From Ignavibacteria bacterium (GTDB lineage: Bacteria > Bacteroidota > Ignavibacteria > Tepidaquicellales > Tepidaquicellaceae), in assembly GCA_019187405.1 (NCBI GenBank), contig JABAQZ010000006.1:1-64000 (forward strand): DNA of 64,000 nt, written 5' to 3'. The notes below the pieces were generated by a model. The model was not told the origin of the DNA. It made no database searches and saw only the letters and a program-made list of their open reading frames with translations. Positions 54,449-61,471 of this stretch are shown here, piece after piece (positions within the stretch are counted from its first letter, which is position 1; each line of letters begins with the position of its first letter). Both the position numbers and the translations under genes were made by a program.

Positions 54449-56329
54449 ATGAATACAATGGAAAAGACATTAAGAAGCCCGGTCTCTCAAAGACCGCATG
54501 AAATTAAAAAAACTGATCAGCTTACCGGAATCGGAGCGGAAGTTTCAATCGAATTGAACGGCATTAAGATGAAAGTTCCGATTGGAAAAACTATACTCGA
54601 AATCTGCCGAGATAACAACATACACATTCCGACTTTATGCTATCATGAAGATTTATGCATTGCTGGCAACTGCAGATTATGCCTCGTGGAAATTGAAGGG
54701 ATGAGAACTTTACAGACTTCCTGTTCTTTTCCCGTTACTTCGCCCATTAAAATAAAAACTTTTTCCGATAAAGTAAGAAAAGCGAGAAAGCATATAGTAG
54801 GACTTATGCTGAGCGAACATTACGGCGAGTGCTACAGTTGTGTCAGAAACAACAACTGTGAACTTCAGTCTCTTGCGCGTGAATATGGAATAGACAATTA
54901 TGAATTCGGTCATATATGCAGTCCAAGATACAATGTAGATAAATCATCTCAAGCTGTAATCAGAGACATGGATAAATGCATACTTTGCAGAAGATGTGTA
55001 AGAACATGTATTGACCTGCAAGAAGTAGGAGTACTCGAAGCCGTAAACAGAGGATATGACACCAAGATATCAACTTTCATGGACAAGCCGCTTGCAGATG
55101 TAGTTTGTATCAATTGCGGTCAATGCATTAACAGATGTCCGACAGCAGCATTGCATGCAAATGATCCTTCCGATGAAATCTGGAAAGCAATTGAAGATCC
55201 CGAAAAGCATGTAATACTTCAGACAGCTCCTTCACCAAGAGCATCTCTCGGTGAAGAGTTCGGACTGCCTCCCGGTCATTCAATGACGGGACAGCTAAAC
55301 ACAGCCGCAAGGAGAATGGGATTTGACAGAGTTTTTGATACTAATTTTTCCGCCGATCTTACGATTATGGAAGAAGGAACTGAACTTCTCAACAGATTAA
55401 GAAAAGCATTGGTTGAAAAAGACACATCAGTAAGACTGCCGCAGTTCACTTCATGTTCACCCGGCTGGATAAAATTCATTGAGCACTTTTATCCGGAATA
55501 TCTCGATTATCTTTCGACTGCAAAATCGCCTCAGCAGATGTTTGGTTCAGTGATTAAAACTTTCTATGCTGATGAATCGGGTATTGATCCTGCAAACATA
55601 GTCAACGTAGCTTTAATGCCTTGCGCTGCGAAAAAATTTGAATGCAACAGACCTGAAATGAATTCTTCGGGATTCAAAGATATTGATTACGGACTTACAA
55701 CCAGAGAAATGGCAAAGATGATACGCGAAGCGGGACTTGTTCTGCCCGATCTTCCGAAATCCGGATTTGATGATCCTTTCGGAGAAGCTTCCGGTGCGGG
55801 ACTTATTTTTGGATCTACCGGAGGAGTAATGGAAGCCGCATTGAGAACAGTATATGAACTCGTAACCGGTAGAGTAGTTCCATTTAAAAATCTCAACATT
55901 GAAGTTTGCAGAGGCATGAAAGGAATCAAAGAAGCATCGGTCAAACTGGAAAACTGCAGACCTGAATTTTCATTTCTTGAAGGCATTGATCTGAAATTTA
56001 TCGTAGCTCATGGTACTGCAAATGCAAAAGTTGTGATGGATATGCTGAAAAATGGCGAACTTAAAGATTATCACTTCGTTGAAATTATGGCCTGTCCCGG
56101 AGGATGCATAGGCGGAGGCGGACAGCCGATTCCTACTTCGGAATCAATAAGAAAGCTGAGAGCGAAAGCTATTTATGAAGAGGAAGCCGGATTGCCCGTA
56201 AGAAAGTCTCATGAGAATCCGCACATTAAATATATATATGAAAAGTTCCTTAAAGACGGACCTTGCGGAAAACTTTCTCACAAGCTGCTTCATACGCATT
56301 ATGTAAAGCGGGGAAAATTTATCAATTAA
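54449..56329 (+). CDS. hydA: [FeFe] hydrogenase catalytic subunit
   Basis: 626 residues. Clusters in order: [2Fe-2S] (Cys64, 75, 78, 92), His-Cys3 [4Fe-4S] (His124, Cys128, 131, 137), two [4Fe-4S] (Cys177/180/183/187 and 220/223/226/230), then the H-cluster domain. The H-cluster signatures are TSCSPGW (Cys336), MPCAAKKFE (Cys392) and MACPGGCIGGGGQP (Cys549, Cys553). The residue after Cys336 is Ser337, where clostridial CpI has Cys299, the proton-transfer residue. A small C-terminal domain ends SHKLLHTHYVKRG. It makes or uses H2, coupled to NAD(H) through the NuoE/NuoF-like partners. The maturases HydE, HydF and HydG are not in this window. Confidence 0.95.
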   Translation: MNTMEKTLRSPVSQRPHEIKKTDQLTGIGAEVSIELNGIKMKVPIGKTILEICRDNNIHIPTLCYHEDLCIAGNCRLCLVEIEGMRTLQTSCSFPVTSPIKIKTFSDKVRKARKHIVGLMLSEHYGECYSCVRNNNCELQSLAREYGIDNYEFGHICSPRYNVDKSSQAVIRDMDKCILCRRCVRTCIDLQEVGVLEAVNRGYDTKISTFMDKPLADVVCINCGQCINRCPTAALHANDPSDEIWKAIEDPEKHVILQTAPSPRASLGEEFGLPPGHSMTGQLNTAARRMGFDRVFDTNFSADLTIMEEGTELLNRLRKALVEKDTSVRLPQFTSCSPGWIKFIEHFYPEYLDYLSTAKSPQQMFGSVIKTFYADESGIDPANIVNVALMPCAAKKFECNRPEMNSSGFKDIDYGLTTREMAKMIREAGLVLPDLPKSGFDDPFGEASGAGLIFGSTGGVMEAALRTVYELVTGRVVPFKNLNIEVCRGMKGIKEASVKLENCRPEFSFLEGIDLKFIVAHGTANAKVVMDMLKNGELKDYHFVEIMACPGGCIGGGGQPIPTSESIRKLRAKAIYEEEAGLPVRKSHENPHIKYIYEKFLKDGPCGKLSHKLLHTHYVKRGKFIN

Positions 56330-56343
56330 TAAAAGAATGGGTT

Positions 56344-57726
56344 ATGATAAATCTCATCCCGTTAAATACAAGAGATATTAATTACTTGTTTGAGCTAGTA
56401 AGCCAGAGAAACAGCTGGTTTATTAAGCTCAGATATATTGCCGTAATTCTGCTTCTCGGATTTTACTTTATTCTTTTATTTATAGGTTCAGAGGAATTTT
56501 TTCCTGAACAAAAGCTTGGAATACTGCTTGTGTTCTTTTCGATTTTCATTTACAATCTATTGTTATCTATAATTTCCGGAAAAGATGTAATAAAAAATGA
56601 TGTAAGCGCTTTTAATCCCATGAAGTTTGCATTACTGCAGATCATACTCGATCTATCATCGCTGATGATACTCGTTTACATAACCGGTTTGATTAACAGT
56701 CCTTTCTATTTGTTTTTTATTTTTCACGCAATTATAGGAAGTCTAATACTTCCCGGTTCTGTAGTTTATTTATTAATGGTAATAGTTCTTCTTGTTTTCT
56801 CGTTATTGAATATATTTACGCACTTTGGATTAATAAGCGAGTTTCCAATTTCGGTATTAAGCTCCATAAAATCACTCGATACATATTATCTTTTTCTGAA
56901 TCTTCTATCTTTCTGGCTAATGATACTGCTTAGCGTAATGTTTGTCAATTATCTAACAAGCGCTTTGTATAGAAGAGAACAGGAACTCATCGAAGCAATT
57001 CAGAAAATCGAATCGGCAGAATCGGAAAAACAGAAATACATAATGGCAGTGGTGCATGAAGTAAAATCTCCATTATCTGTAATTGTTTCATATCTGAATC
57101 TTCTGTTAAGCGGAATTTATGAAGGAATAAATGATAACGTTAAAGAAATTCTGGTTAAAATGAAAAAAAGATCTGACGATGCAATAGTGCTGACAAATGA
57201 CATTCTCAATGTATCAAGAATCAGACAGCTGAAGGAACTAAAAAAAGAGAATATAGATCCGTTGCAGATTACCGGGAATATAATAGAAAATTTAAAAGAT
57301 AAGGGTATCAATGAAAACATCACCTTTACAATAAAATCAAATCTACCTGAAGGCACGAGACTGATTGCCGACAAACATTTCTTCGAATTGCTAATTTCAA
57401 ATGTCATCAGCAATGCCGTTAAGTTCAATCAGAAAAACGGGAAAGTGGAAGTTATGATATTTTCAGAAGATGGGAATATCTGCATTCAGGTATCTGATTC
57501 AGGGATAGGAATACCGCAGGATGAGCTGAGTAAAATTTCTGATGAGTTTTACAGAAGTCGTGAAGCAAAGAGCAGAGGCATTGAAGGAACAGGACTCGGT
57601 ATGCATACGGTAAGACAGATAGCGGAAAAGCATGGTGGAAGTCTGAAAGTTATGAGTCCGTCAGGTATTGGCAATAAAGATTTCCCGGGAACGACAGTGG
57701 AAATAAGACTTCCGGCAATAGAATAA
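56344..57726 (+). CDS. Membrane sensor histidine kinase
   Basis: 460 residues from the ATG at 56344. About six membrane helices fill residues 25-205. A short coiled linker leads to the phospho-acceptor His238 in VVHEVKSPLSV. The ATPase boxes are NVISNAVKFNQKNG (N), DSGIGIPQDE (G1) and GTGLGMHTVRQIAEKHGG (G2). There is no PAS or periplasmic sensor domain, so sensing is likely in the membrane part. It lies 14 bp after the hydrogenase gene and is the natural partner of the receiver protein at 52406. Confidence 0.94.
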   Translation: MINLIPLNTRDINYLFELVSQRNSWFIKLRYIAVILLLGFYFILLFIGSEEFFPEQKLGILLVFFSIFIYNLLLSIISGKDVIKNDVSAFNPMKFALLQIILDLSSLMILVYITGLINSPFYLFFIFHAIIGSLILPGSVVYLLMVIVLLVFSLLNIFTHFGLISEFPISVLSSIKSLDTYYLFLNLLSFWLMILLSVMFVNYLTSALYRREQELIEAIQKIESAESEKQKYIMAVVHEVKSPLSVIVSYLNLLLSGIYEGINDNVKEILVKMKKRSDDAIVLTNDILNVSRIRQLKELKKENIDPLQITGNIIENLKDKGINENITFTIKSNLPEGTRLIADKHFFELLISNVISNAVKFNQKNGKVEVMIFSEDGNICIQVSDSGIGIPQDELSKISDEFYRSREAKSRGIEGTGLGMHTVRQIAEKHGGSLKVMSPSGIGNKDFPGTTVEIRLPAIE

Positions 57727-58178: not shown

Positions 58179-58793
58179 TTAATCCACCCTTTTTACTTCG
58201 ATATTTTTAAGCCAGTATACATGCCGTGGACCTGTCTTAATATCATTTTTGCAAATTAGAATCATATCTCCCTGCTCTTTAATAGGTTGTTCATTCTCTT
58301 CAAATAATACATATACATTATCACCTGTAGGATTATTGTATATTTCTGCCCAGGAAAATGTTGCTTTGTAATTATCTGTTGCTCTAGCTACAATATAAAA
58401 ATTCCTGTCTTTATGATCGCTTTGTGATATTTTGGCTTTATCCAAAATATCTCTCAGCAAAACCCCTTTGCAAGTTTTATTTTCTTTTGTCTCGGCTCCG
58501 CTTTGACAAATTACTTTAAAATTCTCAATCGTAACAACTTTCATTTTTCTAAGTGAATCTACATTTAAAATCAATGGGTTGTCAACGTCACCATTGACAG
58601 TAATCTGGCTGCTTATAAATTTCATGCTATCTTCCGCTTGAAGAGACATCATGCAGTTACGAGTATTAGTTCCAGCCATTCCGCCTATGCTTAAACTTTT
58701 ATTTGTTTCTGATGTTCTTGTTACATTATTACTAATGATAATAAAAACAAGAATTAATACCGCTGTCGAAATTGTCAATAATATTTTTTTCAT
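58179..58793 (-). CDS. Exported molybdopterin-oxidoreductase-fold protein
   Basis: 204 residues. An N-terminal hydrophobic segment (5-23) anchors or exports it. Residues 65-204 fit the oxidoreductase molybdopterin-binding (sulfite-oxidase-type) fold: ITVNGDVDNPLILNVDSLRK, VICQSGAETKENKTCKG, VLLRDILDKAKI and a final HVYWLKNIEV strand. A Cys is in the ICQSG loop, near where sulfite-oxidase proteins hold the metal Cys. Whether it binds the cofactor is unproven. Lying downstream of the TonB receptor and ModE-like regulator, it is probably the product served by them. Confidence 0.75.
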   Translation of the reverse strand: MKKILLTISTAVLILVFIIISNNVTRTSETNKSLSIGGMAGTNTRNCMMSLQAEDSMKFISSQITVNGDVDNPLILNVDSLRKMKVVTIENFKVICQSGAETKENKTCKGVLLRDILDKAKISQSDHKDRNFYIVARATDNYKATFSWAEIYNNPTGDNVYVLFEENEQPIKEQGDMILICKNDIKTGPRHVYWLKNIEVKRVD

Positions 58794-58949
58794 AATAATT
58801 TTAATTAATTAATGATTAATGATTTATTTTTTTTATAGATAATCTTGATATTCTGAAATAGATATTCTTTTTTTTAATGAGTGTAATTTATTCAATTTGA
58901 AATAATTAAAATTCATTGATATATACTAAATGTTTTCGTAAAGGCTTTA

Positions 58950-60959
58950 CTAATAATTAAAAAATCTTAGTGTTAAAAAAATATTTCTTCCTTCTTCCGG
59001 ATAACCTTCGGTCAACATATAGTTTTTGTCAAAGATGTTGTTAATACCTGCTTCAATGCTCATGTATTTCCACAATTGTCCTGTAACAATTGCTCCAAAA
59101 ATTACATACTCCGGAACCTTAGTCCCATAGCTTGTGCTATAACGTATTGAATTATACTCAATATTTCCTAAAATCCCGATCTGTTTCAATGGTTTGTATT
59201 GAATTGTAGAAAACAGTTTTGTATAAGGTACATCGGTAAATAATACAGAAGGATTTGCAAGGTTGTTTCTTTCGATATATGTATAATTTAAATCCGCATT
59301 TAAGTATTTCATGACATCAAAATTTAATGATAATTCAATTCCCATAAATTCTGCACTACCTGTATTTTGCATCTGAGATTTACCGGGTTGAACATTACTT
59401 ACATTGATAATAGCATTGGTAATATGGCTATAAAAAAGTGAAGATTTAAATGTAAGCTTATTTAAAAATCTACCTGCGTAAGTCAAATCATAATTAAAAG
59501 AAGTTTCAGGTTTGAGATCAGGATTAGGCAAGGCAGTTCCCATCCTATATGAATAACGTTCTTTTATTGTTGCAAAGCGTGTTTTCCGAGATATAGTACC
59601 TACAATTTTGTGTTCTTCTTTTATGAGATAAAAAGCTCCGAGCTGATAATTCAACGCCGGGTTTTTTTCGGCTTTTGCAAAGTCAGTTATTGTGTTTGTT
59701 GATTTATTGTAATCTTGTGCTGTGATATTATTTCTGTAGTTATAGCTTAATCCCGGAATAAGAACAAACTTATCACTAATATTGTAAACATCTTCAAGCG
59801 CTAAGCTTAATGTGATATCTTCAAAGTGTCTTACCGGTTCATTCAGATCGTTTTCTCTATGGATATCTTCTTTAAAATGTGCTGAAAATTTTAATTCATT
59901 TTTCGGGATAATATTTGTCCCGTATTCTAAGCTGCCTCCGTATGTATAATCATTGTACCAACTTTGAAAGGCATAAGGTTTGTTTTGCGTAGTATAAGTT
60001 GAATCATCAAAACTATTTATTGAATTTTTAAAACTGTCAAAATATAAACGGCTTTTAATGTGGTTTTTCTCGTTTAATTTTATCTCCGATAATAAATAAT
60101 AGATTTCCTTATTCCAGCTTGGCCATTGCCAAAAGCGCGGCTTTGAGTAAAGAGAATTTAATTTATCGTCGCCTGCATAAACCGGAGTGCCTTTTTTCCC
60201 CTTTTGATTAATGTAACAAATTACAAACTCATGATTTTTATTCGGAGTCCAGCCAATTTTAATATTAACCTTTTGATCCGAGCGATATGAATTTTCCCGC
60301 TCACCGCCATCTTCGTGAGCATGCGGTTTAAATTCATTTGACATTTTATATGAATTGCTTTTTAAATAAGAGTAGCTGCCCTGCAAATAAAATTTTTCAT
60401 AACCAGACCCAACATTGATATTTCCTCTAAAACCATTGATATTTATTATTCCAAATGAACCGTCAAAATCTAATTTTTTACTTGGCTTTAGTGAAACTAA
60501 GTTGATCGTTCCTCCTAATGAATTTGGACCATAAAGCATGGATGAAAATCCTTTTGACACATCAATATTGGATAAATCGAAGGTTGTAAATCTTGCTAAA
60601 TCCACATAACCATCATAAGGGACATAAACAGGAATGCCATCCATATAAACCGGTACAGCTCGAAGATCAAATCCTCTTACCGATACCATTGATTCATTCC
60701 TGGGTCCGGAAGCAGTTAAATTTATACCGGGTAAAATATTTAATACACGGGATACTTCGAACCTGTTTTGGGATTCCATGTTCTTTTTGGTTATTGTGGC
60801 GGATATATCAACTTCCCTTGAAGCTGTTATATTAATTTCTCCAAGGCGAAATGTCATTGTTGCCAAAGAATCCATCTTGCTTTTATTAAGAGTGTCTTCA
60901 GTTTGTGAAATACCTAATGCTGGTATCATAAACAAAACAATAAATAATTTTTTAATCAT
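58950..60959 (-). CDS. TonB-dependent receptor, predicted molybdate/tungstate or related uptake
   Basis: 669 residues. Signal peptide (1-18), short lead with the MTFRLGEINITASRE TonB-box/plug start, plug domain (45-170: VSRVLNILPGINLTASGPRN, VSVRGFDLRAVPVYMDGIPV, GPNSLGGTINLVS), then the barrel to a terminal LRFFNY, ending in the aromatic residue typical of porins. A palindrome of the same kind as at the ModE-like gene lies 23-46 bases upstream. Substrate is inferred from the neighbouring ModE-like and molybdopterin-fold genes. HAHEDGGE in an extracellular loop could bind metal. Confidence 0.88.
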   Translation of the reverse strand: MIKKLFIVLFMIPALGISQTEDTLNKSKMDSLATMTFRLGEINITASREVDISATITKKNMESQNRFEVSRVLNILPGINLTASGPRNESMVSVRGFDLRAVPVYMDGIPVYVPYDGYVDLARFTTFDLSNIDVSKGFSSMLYGPNSLGGTINLVSLKPSKKLDFDGSFGIININGFRGNINVGSGYEKFYLQGSYSYLKSNSYKMSNEFKPHAHEDGGERENSYRSDQKVNIKIGWTPNKNHEFVICYINQKGKKGTPVYAGDDKLNSLYSKPRFWQWPSWNKEIYYLLSEIKLNEKNHIKSRLYFDSFKNSINSFDDSTYTTQNKPYAFQSWYNDYTYGGSLEYGTNIIPKNELKFSAHFKEDIHRENDLNEPVRHFEDITLSLALEDVYNISDKFVLIPGLSYNYRNNITAQDYNKSTNTITDFAKAEKNPALNYQLGAFYLIKEEHKIVGTISRKTRFATIKERYSYRMGTALPNPDLKPETSFNYDLTYAGRFLNKLTFKSSLFYSHITNAIINVSNVQPGKSQMQNTGSAEFMGIELSLNFDVMKYLNADLNYTYIERNNLANPSVLFTDVPYTKLFSTIQYKPLKQIGILGNIEYNSIRYSTSYGTKVPEYVIFGAIVTGQLWKYMSIEAGINNIFDKNYMLTEGYPEEGRNIFLTLRFFNY

Positions 60960-60981
60960 TTAATTTAATTTAATTTATAAG

Positions 60982-61005
60982 CACTATGTTTTAAAAGGAA
61001 TAGTG
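60982..61005. promoter_or_regulatory. Palindromic operator upstream of TonB receptor
   Basis: CACTATG (60982-60988), ten bases, then AATAGTG (60999-61005). It is the same pattern and spacing as the site at 61444-61471, with one changed base. It lies 23-46 bases before the receptor ATG. Predicted binding site of the ModE-like protein encoded at 61098. Confidence 0.6.
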
Positions 61006-61097
61006 ATATTAAAAATTTTTTGTCTGATATTTGATTTCGTTTTATAAGTGTTTTTAAGATAAAATTGATATGCATTAATAGGTTTAAACATAAATAT

Positions 61098-61448
61098 TTA
61101 AAAAGTTATTCGCTTTGATTCTTTTTTGATAAAATTATTTATTTCTTTTTCTATTCTGTAAAATTCTTTTATAATCCTTTCTCCCTCTTTTGTAAGCTCA
61201 GCGCCACTTCCGTTTTTACCACCTAATATTTTTTTTACAAGCGGAAGATGAGAGCGATTATTCATATCCTCCACTAACTGCCATGCTTTTCTATATGACA
61301 TTTTTATTGATTTAGCAGCATTTGTAATCGAACCGGTCTTTTTTATTTTTTCGAGAAGTATAATCCTGCCTATTCCCAAATACGGACCTTCTTCTTCATC
61401 TATCCAAATCCGGACTCTTAAATTATATTTTTTCTTTCTTATCTTCAC
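61098..61448 (-). CDS. ModE-like winged-helix regulator (no molybdate-binding domain)
   Basis: 116 residues. The sequence follows the N-terminal DNA-binding domain of ModE: LRVRIWIDEEEGPYLGIGRI, LLEKIKKTGSITNAAKSIKM, SYRKAWQLVEDMN, GGKNGSGAELTKEGERII. There is no C-terminal di-MOP molybdate domain, so it either senses another way or is a stand-alone DNA-binding form. The start is a GTG at 61448; no upstream in-frame ATG exists because a TGA intervenes. The gene starts within the operator at 61444-61471, implying autoregulation. Confidence 0.88.
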   Translation of the reverse strand: MKIRKKKYNLRVRIWIDEEEGPYLGIGRIILLEKIKKTGSITNAAKSIKMSYRKAWQLVEDMNNRSHLPLVKKILGGKNGSGAELTKEGERIIKEFYRIEKEINNFIKKESKRITF

Positions 61449-61471
61449 TATGCATATTCAAACATAGTGAA
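61444..61471. promoter_or_regulatory. Palindromic operator at the ModE-like gene start
   Basis: TTCACTATG (61444-61452), ten bases, CATAGTGAA (61463-61471): perfect 9-bp arms. On the minus strand it overlaps a TAnnTTTG-type -7 box (TATGTTTG, 61459-61466) and the GTG start at 61448. A bound protein would block both transcription and the start region. Predicted autoregulatory site. Confidence 0.65.

Follow-up and report, generated by a model that had tools for sequence, protein, structure and literature searches.

We identify, in a 64,000-nucleotide stretch of DNA from an Ignavibacteria bacterium (hereafter the window), a three-gene cassette that is likely (probability about 0.78) to be a ModE-repressed system for TonB-dependent uptake of a molybdenum species. 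The metal, its chemical form, the inner-membrane route, and the role of the third gene product remain unproven.

An open-reading-frame check of positions 58179-61471 shows three minus-strand genes, which encode a ModE-type regulator (61098-61448, minus strand; 116 aa, GTG start, single winged-helix domain), a TonB-dependent outer-membrane receptor (58950-60959, minus strand; 669 aa, ATG start, PF07715 and PF14905), and a small exported protein of the PF00174 (sulfite-oxidase fold) family (58179-58793, minus strand; 204 aa). Two copies of a palindrome, to which no strand is assigned, accompany the first two genes. Specifically, operator 1 (61446-61469) matches CACTATG-N10-CATAGTG exactly and overlaps the modE start codon, and operator 2 (60982-61005) carries one mismatch and ends 22 bp before the receptor ATG. 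No box was found upstream of the PF00174 gene in the window cassette, and no terminator-like site was found across the cassette region; therefore, the PF00174 gene probably shares a transcript with the receptor gene, as inferred from sequence alone. An earlier note, made before this analysis, had described three minus-strand genes forming one unit, with the palindrome upstream of the first two. The three genes and their domain identities are confirmed, the unit is supported by conservation in other genomes, and the copy before the receptor stands, while the copy at modE is upstream only in part, because it overlaps the GTG start. Adjoining the cassette on the opposite strand (54449-57726, plus strand) are genes for an [FeFe]-hydrogenase catalytic subunit with NuoG-type Fe-S domains and then a histidine kinase.

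The regulator is a single-domain ModE with a ModE-type winged helix. It aligns with E. coli ModE and relatives but ends after the winged helix, and it matches TIGR00637 with E=8.5e-24 and 83.5 bits in a profile search, under the 98.5-bit cut-off. Its solved relatives are 2IJL (E=2.7e-16), an Agrobacterium-type single-domain ModE with a solved structure, and E. coli ModE (E=6.5e-12). Profile searches gave no match to the molybdate-binding di-MOP (TOBE) domain in the regulator, in agreement with the earlier note, which had reported the domain as lacking; the new control logic that it drew from this loss fails, since single-domain ModE proteins with diverged ModE sites have already been published for Desulfovibrio (PMC545781) and such a protein has been solved (2IJL). 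How a single-domain ModE senses molybdenum has been described as unclear (PMC545781), and molybdate-dependent DNA binding by the window regulator is inferred, without binding data. The known single-domain proteins (PMC545781; 2IJL) resemble the window regulator in consisting of the DNA-binding ModE domain alone and in having diverged predicted operators, but they are linked to modABC, whereas the window ModE is linked to a TonB receptor and has a different operator. The E. coli ModE/modABC regulon likewise shares the winged helix and the 24-bp inverted-repeat operator geometry, but in the window the di-MOP domain is absent, the inner operator bases are changed, and the target is a TonB outer-membrane receptor instead of an ABC importer, in a genome in which no ModA was recognised.

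The palindrome is, by sequence, a ModE box, although no binding data exist. A degenerate 24-bp ModE-box rule (C[GA][CT]TAT-N12-mirror) finds a sole site in the E. coli K-12 modE-modA region, CGTTATATTGTCGCCTACATAACG, located before modA. The window palindrome has the same 24-bp geometry as this modA operator (CGTTAT-N12-ATAACG), with two inner bases in each arm changed symmetrically relative to E. coli, for which the ModE consensus is ATCGNTATATA-N6-TATATANCGAT (PMC545781). Sites with at most one mismatch to CACTATG-N10-CATAGTG occur only twice in the 3.78-Mb genome, both in the cassette, and sites with at most two mismatches occur four times. In a genome of the same class (G087), arms identical to those of the window are found at the same place, at the modE start (L070:9627); in another genome (G196), near-canonical boxes are found at the starts of both modE and the receptor gene; and in one other genus, the form CAGTATT...ACATACTG precedes the receptor and neighbour genes. 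We reject chance occurrence of the palindrome on two grounds, the genome-wide count and its conservation in place. Such operator drift is not new, because diverged ModE sites accompanying single-domain ModE have been documented previously (PMC545781). The recognition helix as the cause of the operator change is unsupported: the helices of the window and G196 regulators are nearly identical but their boxes differ.

The window receptor is identified as a TonB-dependent receptor by its Plug domain (PF07715, E=7.7e-20) and its beta-barrel domain (outer-membrane barrel family PF14905), both above the cut-off. Its TonB dependence and its ligand are inferred, in the absence of uptake data. The solved receptors closest to it are those for colicin/siderophore, B12, and heme, and the NCBIfam models for heme and siderophore receptors match only weakly. 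Cir, ShuA, and BtuB, which are siderophore, heme, and B12 receptors, share with the window receptor a plug, a barrel, and a similar length, but differ in that the window receptor lies behind a ModE box and its relatives have molybdenum-gene neighbours.

The cassette recurs in relatives. Having located ModE relatives first, we examined their neighbourhoods for cassette order and found the order modE, receptor, PF00174 gene repeated, complete in G087 (L070) and divided by a contig end in G196 (L069, L145). In two further metagenome-assembled genomes (L020, L022), modE lies directly 5' of the receptor gene with a canonical box between them. Orthologous cassette receptors are 48-64% identical to the window receptor, and orthologous PF00174 proteins are 51-69% identical to the window protein. 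The series in G229 (L064) comprises modE, a larger receptor, the receptor, an MbnH-like di-heme protein, the PF00174 protein, modA, a TOBE protein, modB, and modC, and thus forms a gene run leading from the outer membrane to the cytoplasm. In one family, cassettes with receptor, PF00174 gene, and ModE lie near nitrogenase-like genes (L141).

A receptor-profile search that was not seeded with ModE, covering 365 genomes of the phylum and counting a match as close at E below 1e-160, found a close receptor in 30 genomes, distinct from seven weaker matches. ModE is present in 28 of these 30 genomes versus about 75 of 365 of the rest (p=6e-16), and by coordinates a PF00174 gene lies within 10 kb of the receptor in 25 of the 30. 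A box is found upstream of 13/18 receptors and 8/8 larger receptors versus 25/533 other ORFs (p=6e-13); in newly fetched upstream regions, scored with the same rule and threshold, it is found at 20/21 clade receptors versus 1/7 weaker homologues in ModE-less genomes. Because close relatives make up many of the supporting genomes, the p-values exaggerate how independent the observations are. Boxes occupy the same position at orthologous modE, receptor, or neighbour genes, and in several families they also precede receptors unlinked to modE (G033, G265). Co-occurrence with MoaA in the class proved uninformative as evidence, MoaA being present in 158/391 genomes and ModE in only 4.

Against the main reading, some genomes of one genus keep modE and the PF00174 gene with the window-type receptor lost or broken (L065-L068). 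The cassette decays in this genus: the receptor gene is frame-broken in L066, where an extra larger receptor stands in front, and absent in L065, L067, L068, and L144, and the PF00174 gene is split in L065.

Two other features of the neighbourhoods were observed. A second receptor type, of about 850-885 aa, adjoins modE (L064:6433-8994; L072:7031-9613; L081:10214-12871; L082:10021-12639; L084:7035-9596), and it is this type that carries an upstream box in all eight cases scored. Genes for MbnH-like and other di-heme peroxidase-type proteins lie beside the PF00174 gene or the receptor gene, both in the phylum (L064:2970-4073; L071:8450-9553) and in alphaproteobacteria (also L134, L135, L139).

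Relatives of the receptor extend to alphaproteobacteria and E. coli. A tblastn search of plasmid records, with the window receptor as query, yields full-length homologues of 30-34% identity. A ModE-type box lies upstream of the receptor homologue in Methylorubrum (L135) and Paracoccus (L137) and upstream of the gene run in Azospirillum (L134); it is less clear in Bartonella (L136), and no such box was found upstream of the receptor homologue in Sphingomonas (L139). The E. coli homologue is 31% identical to the window receptor over nearly its full length and ends an operon (L138:1356-7830) with the order binding protein, FecCD permease, ATPase, methyltransferase, modD, receptor. This operon is preceded by a perfect ModE box, CGCTATATGTGTAAGTATATAGCG, which was examined in L138 and not in every genome. 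The receptor gene is present in 2122 of 5426 complete E. coli genomes (about 39%), including Nissle and the type strain, and the Nissle operon (L153:1545-7971) has the same gene order. The E. coli operon thus shares with the window cassette the receptor similarity and the ModE box before the operon, but it differs in having a FecCD-type ABC importer, a methyltransferase, and modD and in lacking a PF00174 protein; moreover, the species carries a full-length ModE of K-12 type elsewhere, whereas the window ModE is single-domain.

The exported protein matches PF00174 with E=2.3e-07 and 31 bits, against a cut-off of 24. It belongs to the same Pfam family as the sulfite-oxidase enzymes and weakly matches solved sulfite oxidases by profile, but it is a single domain of about 140 residues encoded in an uptake cassette, and its putative Mo-ligand cysteine is not invariant. 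This residue, C96 of a VxCxSG motif, was not aligned directly to the sulfite-oxidase enzyme cysteine; it is present in the window protein and most relatives, replaced in L067, L068, L146, L150, and L151, and lost with the surrounding stretch in a shorter subfamily. R190 corresponds to an arginine invariant among the relatives aligned. A single-sequence structure model (pLDDT 37.5) was uninformative. We consider it likely that the protein handles molybdenum or its cofactor in the periplasm, although this role is inferred and unproven.

The gene content of the window genome indicates a need for molybdenum: narGHJI and narK are present, as is a moa operon that includes a TauE/SafE-like permease gene, with gene names assigned from reading translations. 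No ModA was recognised in this genome, its sole PF13531 match being weak and judged ferric-type from its neighbours, and ModABC is accordingly rejected as the inner-membrane partner there. The ModA model TIGR01256 has no match in six other genomes with a window-type cassette, a run that did not include the window genome, and modABC lies immediately adjacent in two genomes whose cassette has the other PF00174 subfamily. A gene for a TauE/SafE-like membrane protein is found repeatedly in moa operons and is frequently a neighbour of modE (L112:7414-8166; L014:6062-6808; L016:2455-3186; L076:8886-9629; L085:9162-9905); its product is a candidate for the inner-membrane molybdate carrier where ModABC is missing.

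In the mechanism that we propose, single-domain ModE would, when molybdenum is sufficient, occupy both 24-bp operators and switch off modE and the receptor gene. When molybdenum is scarce, repression would be lifted, and the TonB-powered receptor would bring a molybdenum species into the periplasm, where the exported PF00174 protein would receive or handle it. Transfer across the inner membrane would not use a recognisable ModABC, and the TauE/SafE-like permease of the moa operon is the candidate. The placement of the operators at or just before start codons is consistent with repression, but repression, the metal, the form of the substrate, and the role of the PF00174 protein are inferred only, as there are no expression, binding, or uptake data. 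Molybdate itself may be the imported species, but a chelated form is more likely, given the general view that porins let free molybdate into the periplasm (PMC8264917). A chelated ligand would also agree with the FecCD-type ABC genes of the E. coli operon; neither they nor the porin point is proof. In a bolder reading, which we regard as no more than possible, the cargo of the receptor is chelated molybdenum or a molybdopterin-type compound (molybdophore or salvaged cofactor). The PF00174 protein would then be a periplasmic binding protein without enzymatic activity that arose from a molybdoenzyme domain and hands the cargo on in place of ModA.

These results correct and extend the earlier note: the locus is not an isolated case, and ModE-boxed relatives are spread through the phylum and are also present in alphaproteobacteria and E. 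coli. A search for the palindrome at orthologous loci, which it had suggested, was run, and ModE-type boxes are present before related receptors. The molybdenum-linked receptor that it had proposed is supported by the box, by ModE co-occurrence, and by modABC, modD, and nitrogenase neighbours, while the identity of the metal and the ligand of the sensor, which it had given as inference, are inference still, with tungsten not excluded.

The strongest alternative, which we nonetheless consider unlikely, is that an iron chelate or heme is the cargo of the receptor, which ModE would control only because molybdoenzymes and nitrogenase also need iron. In its favour, siderophore, B12, and heme receptors are the closest matches among solved structures and NCBIfam models, FecCD-type ABC genes annotated 'iron' adjoin the relatives in E. 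coli and alphaproteobacteria, and Zymomonas nif-cluster receptors beside modD and modE have been called iron-associated (PMC8594446). Against it, the box is a ModE box, and the neighbours in G229 and E. coli include modABC and modD, not iron genes. Iron (Fur) control is rejected for want of a convincing Fur box before any of the 20 genes inspected. Less probable is import of tungsten, another oxyanion, or a nutrient required only under molybdenum scarcity; tungsten can elicit a response from ModE and ModA-type systems, ModA binds it (PMC8264917), and the ligand of single-domain ModE is unknown, but the window genome encodes a nitrate reductase of the molybdenum type together with a moa operon, and related cassettes adjoin modABC or nitrogenase genes. 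Less probable still is a catabolic cassette, in which the PF00174 protein is a periplasmic enzyme whose substrate the receptor imports, under ModE because the enzyme needs molybdenum cofactor: the profile places the protein in the sulfite-oxidase family and C96 is kept, but the protein is a single short domain, C96 is replaced or missing in the relatives noted above, and ModE-boxed receptors exist without a PF00174 protein, as in E. coli.

Single-domain ModE, diverged ModE boxes, TonB receptors, and PF00174 proteins were each known separately. The open-access literature searched yielded no account of a TonB receptor under ModE control; subscription journals and regulon databases were outside the scope, and an earlier prediction is not excluded.

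The clade of TonB receptors with inferred ModE control spans the phylum, alphaproteobacteria, and E. coli, in the share of complete genomes given above. If molybdenum uptake is the correct reading, many bacteria would spend energy to move molybdenum across the outer membrane, beyond diffusion alone, and receptors presently annotated for iron or siderophore uptake would need revision. The question of molybdenum metallophores thereby becomes open to experiment in a tractable organism, E. coli Nissle being one example.
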